Origin: Skermania sp. ID1734
GTDB lineage: Bacteria > Actinomycetota > Actinomycetes > Mycobacteriales > Mycobacteriaceae
Reading direction: 5' to 3'
NCBI RefSeq assembly: GCF_007489285.1
Contig: NZ_VLIY01000018.1
Location: 1-64,000, forward strand
DNA length: 64,000 bases
Part shown: one piece after another, positions 42,311-46,361 of the stretch
Layout of the letters: each line of letters starts with the position of its first letter
Position numbering within the stretch: the stretch's first letter is position 1
Notes under the pieces: model-generated
The model's database searches: none
What the model saw: the letters and a program-made list of their open reading frames with translations, nothing else
Told to the model about the DNA's origin: nothing
Made by a program: the position numbers and the translations under genes

Positions 42311-43890
<1,580 letters not shown>

Positions 43891-43985
43891 CGTTAAAGGA
43901 TGTCTTACGGCGGTAAGCCTAGCAGGGCTTTTGTCACGCGATTGCGCCGGGTGCATCGAACGCCCATTCGACGTGTTGCACCGGT

Positions 43986-44018
43986 CTGCTTGACACATTC
44001 TCATATTTGTCCAAAACT
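43986..44018 (+). promoter_or_regulatory. Candidate promoter/operator of the TetR gene
   Basis: A perfect -35 hexamer TTGACA lies at 43990-43995; 17 bp later is AAAACT, a weak -10. The flanking TTGACA...TGTCCAA forms an imperfect inverted repeat overlapping the spacer, a plausible autoregulatory TetR site. The start of the gene is about 60 bp downstream. Confidence 0.35.
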
Positions 44019-44075
44019 TGTTCCGGCTGGGGGAGAAACCGACCGGCCGAGCCCTTAGGCCCGCCCGGAGGCAGC

Positions 44076-44654
44076 ATGACCGCATCACTCGACCGCATTC
44101 CGTATGCGAAGGCGGCGCGCAATCTGCTGCGCGAATCGGTTCTCTCGGCGACCGACGAGCTGGTGCGGCGCAACGGTTGGGCGGCCACCAGCATCAGCAC
44201 CCTCGCCCGTGCGGCCGGGGTCAGCCGACAGACCGTCTACAACGAGTTCGGTTCCCGGCAGTCCATTGCCGAGGCTTACGTTCTGCACCGCATGGAGGTG
44301 CTGCTCGAGCAGGTCTGCGCGAAACTCACCGCGCACGACACGCTCGAGGACGGCATGCGCAACGCGCTCGAGCTCTTCTTCGAGGCCTGTGATGAGCCGC
44401 TCATCCAAACCGCGCTCGACGGTGACCGGACGAACCTGATCGACCTGGTCCGAATGGCCAACGAGATTGCCACCGACCGGCTCGCCGCCGCGATCCGCGA
44501 CATCAACCCCACCATTTCGGCTGACGACGCAATCATCTTCGCGGACACAGTCGCCCGCATCGCGATGGGGCACGCCATGGCGCCGACACTGCCGCGCGAC
44601 GTGGCGATCGATCGCATGGTGCGGCTGGCTGTCATCGTTCTGCAGCGGGACTGA
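44076..44654 (+). CDS. TetR-family transcriptional regulator
   Basis: ATG at 44076 behind GGAGG; 192 residues. The helix-turn-helix is at about 32-55 (TSISTLARAAGVSRQTVYNEFGSRQS). The C-terminal ligand domain is helical and not assignable to a subgroup. It is divergent from pyrR and is followed after 21 bp by the serpin gene on the same strand, so it may control that gene. It is not part of the conserved nusB-pyrR neighbourhood of relatives, so it appears inserted. Confidence 0.88.
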   Translation: MTASLDRIPYAKAARNLLRESVLSATDELVRRNGWAATSISTLARAAGVSRQTVYNEFGSRQSIAEAYVLHRMEVLLEQVCAKLTAHDTLEDGMRNALELFFEACDEPLIQTALDGDRTNLIDLVRMANEIATDRLAAAIRDINPTISADDAIIFADTVARIAMGHAMAPTLPRDVAIDRMVRLAVIVLQRD

Positions 44655-44675
44655 CGACAGACCTATCGTCGTAGT

Positions 44676-45827
44676 GTGCCCACCACACTGACACCCGCGG
44701 TTACTGCGGCCAATGCGCTCACCGCACGCTGGCTCGACACCGCTTCTGCGGAGCAAAATGTCGTGCTTTCGGGTGCGGGGGTGTGGCCGCTCCTTGCCCT
44801 TCTGACGGATGCTGCCGACGAGCCAGCACGCTCGGAACTGCTCACCGCTGTCGATCACATTGCCGACCCGCTGAACCAAGCGGTCGAGCTCATCGACATC
44901 CTCGACGGCGCGCAGGCGCTATCGGCAGCGCTCGGGCTGTGGGTGCGTCCGCAACTGCCGCTCAACCCGGAGTGGACGGCTGCACTGCCCGCCGGCGTCC
45001 TCGACACGCTCGGCGACCAGGACCGTCTCGACGCGTGGGCCGAAACCCACACCCGAGGACTCATCCCCCGTTTCCCACTCGCCGTCGGTCCCGACGACGC
45101 GCTTGTTCTCGCGACCGCGCTTGCCGCGATGACGCGCTGGCGGGCGCCGTTCGAACCGGCCCGGCTTCACCCGCGGACGGGACCGTGGTCCGGACGAAAC
45201 CTCGAGGCACTGACCCGCTCCAGCACGAACCTGAGCGAGCTTTCGGTCTTGGACGCGCCGTCGCCGGTGACGCGATTGGTTGTCGCAGGCGAAGACGACC
45301 TCGACGTGCACCTTCTTCTTGGCGGCAGCGACCCGGGCGCGCTCATCGACGTCGGGCTGCGCGCGCTCACCGGTGCGATGACCGCGACCGACGGGGCCCG
45401 ACTGCCGATCGGCGCCACCGCACCGGGCGTCGTTGTGGCGCAAGCAGCCGGAAGCACCGACTCGCTGTCAGTTTCCTTGCCGCCGTTTTTGATTCGTTCC
45501 AGCCACGATCTGTGCCGGCAAGCGCAGCTGTTCGGCTTGCACACCGCGACGGACCCCAGCAGCGGGCATTTTCCGCGAATCAGCCCCACCCCGCTGGCGG
45601 TGGGGCGCGGCGCGCAGGACGTCATGGCCCAGTTCAGCGCCGAGGGGTTCAAAGCCGCCGCGGTCACTGCGTTCGCCGTTCGGGTCGCGGCCGCATTTCC
45701 CTTGCATCGCAATCGCGTCAAGACCATATCGGTCACGCTGGACCAGCCGTTCGCGTTCATGGCCGTGCATCGACCGACCGCTCTCGTGGTGGTCGTCGGT
45801 TGGGTGGCCGACCCCGTCGGCAGCTGA
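44676..45827 (+). CDS. Serpin-family protein
   Basis: GTG start, 383 residues, full serpin length. The hinge-like stretch AQFSAEGFKAAAVTAF (about 318-333) precedes the reactive loop, and LDQPFAFMAVHRPTALVVVVGWV near the end matches the serpin signature DxPFxFxIxxxxTGxxLFxGxV. No signal peptide is seen, so it is cytoplasmic if unprocessed. Inhibitory serpins carry T/S at P14; here it is Phe325 after Gly324, and Lys326 follows, so inhibition is uncertain. The loop residues after the hinge (AVRVAAAFPLHRN) give no clear P1. Probably co-transcribed with the TetR gene. Confidence 0.8.
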   Translation: MPTTLTPAVTAANALTARWLDTASAEQNVVLSGAGVWPLLALLTDAADEPARSELLTAVDHIADPLNQAVELIDILDGAQALSAALGLWVRPQLPLNPEWTAALPAGVLDTLGDQDRLDAWAETHTRGLIPRFPLAVGPDDALVLATALAAMTRWRAPFEPARLHPRTGPWSGRNLEALTRSSTNLSELSVLDAPSPVTRLVVAGEDDLDVHLLLGGSDPGALIDVGLRALTGAMTATDGARLPIGATAPGVVVAQAAGSTDSLSVSLPPFLIRSSHDLCRQAQLFGLHTATDPSSGHFPRISPTPLAVGRGAQDVMAQFSAEGFKAAAVTAFAVRVAAAFPLHRNRVKTISVTLDQPFAFMAVHRPTALVVVVGWVADPVGS

Positions 45828-45854
45828 CGCCGCGCGCACCAGCGCGAGCGCGAG

Positions 45855-46361
45855 TCAGGCGGGTTCGTCGTCGTCCGTGGGCCCGGCGGCCGCGGCGGCG
45901 CGAACCTGCGGCGCGATCAGGACCACTTGCCCCAGCACGCCGTTGACGAACGCCGGCGACTCGTCGGTGGACAGCTGCTTGGCCAACTCGACGGCCTCGT
46001 CGACCGCAACGACCGGCGGCACGTCGGCGGCATAGAGCAACTCCCACACCGCGATCCGCAGAATCGCGCGATCGACCGCTGGTAGTCGCTGCAGTGTCCA
46101 TTCCTGCAGATACGACTCGACGGTGGCGTCGATCCGCTCACGGTCGGTGGCCACGCCGCGGACTATCTCAAAGGTGTAGGGATTGACCGGAGCAACTTGG
46201 TCATCGGCGGCAGCCAGCTCCGCGCGCTCGTTGGCCAGCGCGACGACGTCGACGTCGCGAGCCTCGGCCTCGAACAGCAGGTCCACCGCCCGTTTGCGGG
46301 CCTTGTGCCTGCTGCCGAGTCGCTTGTATCCGTGTTTGTCAGATGCGGATGCCACAGGCAC
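45855..46361 (-). CDS. nusB: Transcription antitermination factor NusB
   Basis: GTG start shares a base with the efp stop (TAGTG); 168 residues. [19 protein letters not shown] at the start, the central [21 protein letters not shown] and the C-terminal [27 protein letters not shown] are diagnostic. It binds boxA RNA with NusE for rRNA antitermination. The N-terminus carries about 15 extra residues and the C-terminus an acidic tail (PTDDDEPA). Confidence 0.96.

Follow-up and report, generated by a model that had tools for sequence, protein, structure and literature searches.

Phenylalanine at hinge position P14 in a clade of actinobacterial serpins that lack export signals

Background

Serpins include the protease inhibitors of blood that work like a mousetrap. 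The prokaryotic serpins have been divided into groups S-U, and most of them carry transport peptides, according to the part of Spence et al. 2021 (PMC8233489) used here. The same part gives the hinge consensus of inhibitory serpins, ExGTEAAAA for positions P17 to P9, and describes within group U a divergent Streptomyces clade that is off consensus in the breach and the shutter, and for which a non-inhibitory function is suggested; many of its members keep the consensus hinge. The main text of the paper makes no mention of P14.

On that position, the portion of a review that we draw on (PMC6379291) reports 15 substitutions in PAI-1: charged residues turn the protein into a substrate, and uncharged ones are preferable. 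It also states that the hinge is less well conserved when a serpin is non-inhibitory. Excerpts of another paper (PMC4493575) describe P14 as the first side chain to be buried, and add that its size matters too; in the excerpts of a third (PMC12702362), we found nothing on P14. Telling inhibitory from non-inhibitory serpins leans on a small and uncharged residue at P14, and a clade in which this residue is a fixed phenylalanine puts the rule to the test.

The serpin described here was found in a window of 64,000 nucleotides of Skermania sp. ID1734, the window being the whole stretch of DNA that was analysed. Table 1 gives the coordinates of its gene, of the hinge, and of the neighbouring features.

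Table 1. Features of the serpin locus, in window coordinates
Feature	Position	Strand	Remarks
pyrR	43245..43856	-	NCBIfam PyrR 316 bits; flank of the site
TetR-type regulator gene	44076..44654	+	192 aa from ATG; Pfam TetR_N 41.8 bits
TATCGT, likely -10 element	44664-44669	+	6 nt upstream of GTG 44676; lies between the TetR stop and the serpin start
Serpin gene	44676..45827	+	383 aa, GTG start; Pfam Serpin, AlphaFold model, 34 strong orthologous genes
Hinge nonamer G324-A332 (GFKAAAVTA)	45645..45671	+	PAI-1 alignment; lowest entropy of 375 nonamers, 30 orthologs
Codon of P14 Phe325	45648-45650	+	
Residues 333-359: remaining reactive loop and strand s1C as far as Pro-Phe	45672..45752	+	Low model confidence at 336-348
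nusB	45855..46361	-	NCBIfam nusB 133.9 bits; flank of the site

Results and discussion

The hinge of the window serpin

The product of the gene matches the Pfam profile PF00079 (Serpin) with 70.5 bits, for a cut-off of 27 (E 2e-19), and a phmmer search of the PDB yields PAI-1, with a best E of 3.3e-9. No match was obtained with the NCBIfam profiles at E 1, with the PADLOC profiles at E 0.01, or with the PHROGs at E 0.1. In the phmmer alignment, residues G324 and F325 are matched with Gly-Thr in the hinge of PAI-1, and are thus P15 and P14: the initial annotation, which had read a phenylalanine at P14 in place of Thr or Ser, was right on this point. The other positions follow, with A322 at P17, Glu at P16, Lys at P13, three alanines at P12-P10, Val at P9 and Thr at P8. 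Set against the inhibitory consensus, the hinge AEGFKAAAV agrees at P15 and P12-P10, and departs from it at P14, P17, P13 and P9.

With inhibitory serpins of the PAI-1 type, the window protein has in common the fold, the glycine at P15, the Ala-rich P12-P10, the threonine at P8 and the C-terminal strands. It differs from them by Phe for Thr at P14, Ala for Glu at P17 and Val at P9, by the lack of an export signal (by eye, the N-terminus has no hydrophobic segment), and by a loop that is nine residues longer: from the glycine of P15 to F359 of the Pro-Phe pair, the window serpin has 36 residues and PAI-1 has 27. Because of this longer loop, the P1 residue of the window serpin cannot be placed. 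Several breach and shutter positions, numbered after alpha-1-antitrypsin, are also off consensus. Two serpins that we take to be inhibitory, C1 inhibitor and alpha-2-antiplasmin, presumably have a hydrophobic P14 as well, namely Val; however, Val is far smaller than Phe, and these two serpins are extracellular.

The predicted fold

A structure was predicted with AlphaFold2 from alignment A2, which holds the window protein and 80 homologs; the model has a mean pLDDT of 89 and a pTM of 0.84. It has a serpin fold, the feature on which the initial annotation had made its identification depend, and the Pfam profile and the model agree in supporting that identification. Compared by VIA-align, the model comes closest to cleaved vaspin, with Z 35.4 and 2.7 A across 340 residues. 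Of the first 14 structures listed, 10 are called "cleaved" or "latent" in their titles; native antithrombin, 1t1f, comes out with Z 30.6. The model has residues 324-335 inserted as a strand next to residues 310-320, with a pLDDT of about 95 at 321-330 and below 50 at 336-348.

An inserted loop in an uncut protein invites the claim of a latent form. We dropped this claim, since the control, a Thr-P14 serpin modelled by the same procedure (L188), also has its loop inserted, with strands 291-304 and 308-321; this control is a single protein, and its six-row alignment, A4, is far shallower than A2. The inserted model of the window protein is consequently no evidence for a special latent state: all that it shows is that, as predicted, a phenylalanine at P14 can be accommodated in the inserted position. 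Whether AlphaFold yields an inserted or a native form seems to depend on the protein, the alignment or the settings, since antithrombin and its variants were left in the native form in the work reported in the part of PMC11226102 used here.

Extent and conservation of the clade

The window protein was searched against 401 genomes of the same GTDB family, and finds a match in 50 of them. Counting the window, 35 gene matches have E <= 5.8e-84, and the window serpin is not a chance occurrence, because 34 further genes match at this level. The residue at P14 was tallied over 56 distinct proteins chosen without any criterion on the hinge, namely the 30 rows of alignment A1 (the window protein and its orthologs), the five proteins L152-L156, the nine proteins L143-L151, ten new ones, L165 and L166. 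It is Phe in 55 of them and Leu in the remaining one, L166; the window protein and 54 of the 55 others have Phe at P14 within a hinge of the form GxxAAAV[TS]. The tally leaves aside about eight full-length matches without a locus, fragments, a second weak match in genome G599, and the matches in the 401 genomes that are weaker than about 1e-7, among which those of G004, G079, G105 and G179 are Thr-P14 serpins.

The clade is widespread in actinobacteria. A profile scan of genome contigs lists 80 loci, of at least 408 relatives among at least 591 pattern matches, in Nocardia, Streptomyces, Streptosporangium, Catellatospora, Pseudonocardia, Gordonia and other hosts; a scan of genome contigs with a single protein confirmed no relative. 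All 81 proteins (the window and the 80 listed loci) have Phe at P14, in a sample that is biased, one search pattern having contained the hinge and another Trp37, so that our claim is based on the tally over 56 proteins. The profile of A1, applied to 296 genomes across the phylum, matches in 23, and most of the weaker matches are Thr-P14 serpins. Distant relatives, at about 30 percent identity, come from genus g29, probably Mycobacterium, and from Gordonia, with two more from other families. The papers listed in our search of mostly open-access literature include none on a Phe-P14 clade.

Within the 30 rows of A1, some of them trimmed of long tails, Phe325, Trp37 and Phe320 are invariant, and the nonamer of residues 324-332 has the lowest entropy of all. 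In all 30 rows, P4 is one of Leu, Met, Val and Phe; 29 rows have one of Phe, Val, Ile and Leu at P6, and one row has Ala there. The annotation had seen no signal peptide, and this extends to the relatives: scored for a hydrophobic N-terminal stretch, 0 of 80 homologs have one, and a lipobox-like string, present in 10 of 80 proteins, always occurs without such a stretch.

A comparison with those serpins of the same bacterial family that are exported and bear a lipobox (set A3, 27 proteins) separates the two kinds. Both belong to the serpin fold family and have small residues at P12-P10; the exported serpins often have Val at P9 too, and share part of the shutter with the Phe-P14 proteins, including some of its changes, for instance a Gln where His is usual. 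They differ in that P14 is Thr and P17 is Glu in all 27, that nearly all have an export signal, and that they form a separate branch. Of the 30 proteins of set L003-L032, 25 have a hydrophobic N-terminal stretch and 29 a lipobox-like motif. The loop from the glycine of P15 to Pro-Phe measures 33-38 residues in the Phe-P14 proteins and 27-33 in the exported set. In a FastTree phylogeny of 83 rows, computed with the columns of residues 324-350 masked, and being one method on one sample, a branch of support 1.0 sets off all 40 rows of Phe-P14 proteins together with L165; the outlier L167, which has Val at P14, joins them at the next branch, with support 0.999.

These comparisons establish, at the level of sequence, that the window serpin belongs to a distinct clade of actinobacterial serpins without export signals, with a hinge made of Gly at P15, a bulky hydrophobic residue at P14 (Phe, once Leu), small side chains from P12 to P10, and hydrophobic ones at P6 and P4. 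The divergent group U clade, with which we compare it by published description, is likewise actinobacterial and deviant in breach and shutter in the part of PMC8233489 used here, and the Phe-P14 clade also has Streptomyces members.

Variations of gene structure were seen among the relatives. In the Nocardia cyriacigeorgica group (L080, L094, L099, L105), the orthologs have about 100 extra C-terminal residues, mostly Pro-rich. In Streptomyces, Phe-P14 serpin genes can stand in tandem: there are three consecutive genes in L141, and two in each of L123, L126, L128, L130 and L140.

Does the loop insert?

We give even chances to the conjecture that the window protein is an insertion-competent cytoplasmic serpin, with a buried phenylalanine at P14 as its anchor, that traps or senses an intracellular protease. 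The loop segment P15-P4 would be built to insert as a strand into beta-sheet A, and the side chain of the P14 phenylalanine would be buried as a hydrophobic anchor in the place of threonine. An intracellular protease would cut the variable loop beyond P4, upon which the hinge would zip in; the protease would then either be trapped, the serpin acting as a suicide inhibitor, or the change of shape would be passed on, the serpin acting as a sensor.

That the loop is one that inserts is argued from the conservation of the whole hinge, the small P12-P10, the hydrophobic P6 and P4, and the uncharged P14. The evidence counted in favour of this reading is the first rank of the hinge among 375 nonamers, the 55 phenylalanines in 56 proteins, the lack of a signal in 80 of 80, the inserted phenylalanine at a pLDDT of about 95, the P14 series of PAI-1, and the branch that, with the loop masked, sets the clade apart from the Thr-P14 serpins with support 1.0. 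Counted against it are the departures from ExGTEAAAA at P14 and P17, a loop longer than that of PAI-1, the size of Phe, much larger than any usual P14, the differences at several breach and shutter positions, the inserted model being unspecific, as the Thr-P14 control is inserted likewise, and the suggestion of a non-inhibitory function for the divergent Streptomyces clade in the part of PMC8233489 used here. The initial annotation had added that Phe at P14 normally hinders insertion, which is overstated: in the PAI-1 series it is charged residues that do the harm, and phenylalanine, though large, is uncharged.

The main rival to the insertion-competent serpin is a non-inhibitory one, a stable scaffold for binding or with a chaperone-like role, whose loop is permanently inserted or never inserted, locked by Phe325. 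We consider this possible, but somewhat unlikely. The residues at P14 and P17, the altered shutter positions and the suggestion made for the Streptomyces clade (PMC8233489, in part) all fit a scaffold; however, some of the shutter changes, as noted above, are also found in exported Thr-P14 serpins. The uncut loop inserted in the model, with its 10 cleaved or latent titles among the first 14 matches, would fit a locked state as well, but a Thr-P14 control that is inserted too deprives the model of its force as an argument. Finally, the conservation of the hinge is the highest in the protein, unlike what the part of PMC6379291 used here says of non-inhibitory serpins. As the initial annotation had it, the serpin may be "non-inhibitory or altered"; the Phe at P14 is a trait of the clade, and not a change in the window protein.

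A single mutant, Phe325 to Thr, would test the P14 rule in this clade, where the hinge is the best-conserved stretch. The clade is also a way into the question of what serpins do inside bacteria.

Serpins fused to phage repressors

In two members of the clade, the reading frame continues beyond the serpin, open and with no stop, into a C-terminal phage immunity-repressor domain. The first is a protein of 556 aa of Gordonia hankookensis (L110:6001-7668, + strand), and the second a protein of 655 aa (L150:2233-4197, - strand) of the single-contig genome G365 of genus g29; both are Phe-P14 serpins. The domains match the PHROG phrog_357, a transcriptional repressor, with E 7.3e-75 and E 4.8e-70 respectively. 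Gordonia phage Nedarya has an annotated immunity repressor with 65 percent identity to the repressor domain of L110; relatives of this domain occur in 1082 of 50,697 phage records, and we take these phages to be those of cluster A. Repressors of this type stand alone in the phages, and form a C-terminal domain in L110 and L150. The window serpin, unlike these two, has no phrog_357 domain.

The serpin parts of L110 and L150 are 31 percent identical and the repressor parts 58 percent, and several relatives lack the repressor: L147 and L149, at 74-76 percent to the serpin of L150, and the Gordonia relative in genome G379, at 62 percent, with a frame of 460 aa. This pattern fits two separate fusions, as they apparently are from the sequences. 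The repressor domain matches 24 places in the 401 genomes, and a serpin is in the same locus only at L110 and L150. No paper in the literature searched contains both "serpin" and "immunity repressor".

The fusions suggest that the change of shape of a serpin might be wired to gene control. Extended to the whole clade, this would make the Phe-P14 serpins protease-sensing switches, in which cleavage triggers the insertion of the Phe-anchored hinge and the resulting change of shape is read by attached domains; we hold so general a role to be improbable. If it were true, L110 and L150 would be repressors gated by a protease, and would connect proteolysis with phage immunity.

An N-terminal module of another kind was also seen in this group: the first 90 residues of L147, L149 and L150 contain two CxxC pairs and look like a zinc ribbon by eye, and Pfam gives no match in these three proteins outside the serpin and HTH parts.

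The genomic site and the TetR neighbour

The initial annotation placed the serpin, with a TetR gene, between nusB and pyrR, said to be neighbours in relatives. The flanks identified with NCBIfam confirm the location, and the second statement is right for most relatives: among the 23 further genomes of the family where the two genes were located, 15 have pyrR and nusB less than 400 bp apart. Among the 81 loci (the window and the 80 listed ones), flanks of 6 kb contain pyrR in 24 cases and nusB in 43, and the two genes lie on either side of the serpin in 20, including the window and the Antrihabitans locus L098. The same gene is found at the same site in Antrihabitans and in many Nocardia. Because the site is common to these genera, the insertion is, judging by gene order, old and shared; a recent insertion into the Skermania genome is not supported, the GC content also being inside the window's own range.

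In flanks of at most 6 kb, no functional neighbours conserved across genera were seen. To the eye, on cluster representatives, the neighbours in Nocardia resemble an AlkB-type oxygenase, an HD domain, a quinone oxidoreductase, an FAD monooxygenase, a transporter and another TetR; other genera have other genes. As to mobile elements, no serpin match was found in the 50,697 phage records, none of 39 pattern matches in IMG/VR was confirmed, and 5 of 72,556 plasmid records match, three from Streptomyces, one from Kitasatospora and one from Embleya, with sizes from 225 kb to 3.1 Mb. An IMG/VR contig (L185:282-5054) has a canonical Thr-P14 serpin as part of what is apparently a multidomain protein, its open frame extending over about 1,590 residues.

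The TetR gene ends, with its stop at 44652-44654, 21 nt upstream of the serpin start and on the same strand. A hexamer TAnnnT lies 6-8 nt before the in-frame start in 57 of 80 genes (the window and 79 loci with enough upstream DNA), 52 of them at a distance of 6 or 7; out-of-frame starts give 3/80 and 0/80, and shuffled DNA a mean of 1.1. These are not 57 independent cases, as 50 are related rows from Nocardia. The pattern is present in 50 of 50 tested Nocardia loci, the window, Aldersonia, 3 of 15 Streptomyces loci and both Catellatospora; it is absent from the tested loci of Antrihabitans, Gordonia, Mycobacterium, Mycolicibacter, Pseudonocardia, Streptosporangium, Planotetraspora, Actinacidiphila and an Actinomycetota MAG. 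A generic sigma-70 scan of 43800-45960 found no promoter. The position of the hexamer suggests leaderless transcription, so that the serpin mRNA is probably leaderless, and it supports the GTG as the N-terminus and a serpin with its own promoter, independent of the TetR gene.

The initial annotation's "TetR partner" thus finds no support, and that the two genes form an operon, recently inserted between pyrR and nusB, in which TetR controls the serpin, is very improbable: the common strand, the short gap and the close spacing of pyrR and nusB in relatives would favour it, but the serpin has a likely -10 box of its own in that gap, the TetR clusters with no neighbour gene at the 80 homologous loci, and the 20 flanked loci and the GC content speak against a recent event.

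The pyrR-nusB interval itself (43857-45854 in the window) is tight in most relatives and holds varied genes in Nocardia, Antrihabitans and Aldersonia, as if genes had been gained there repeatedly.
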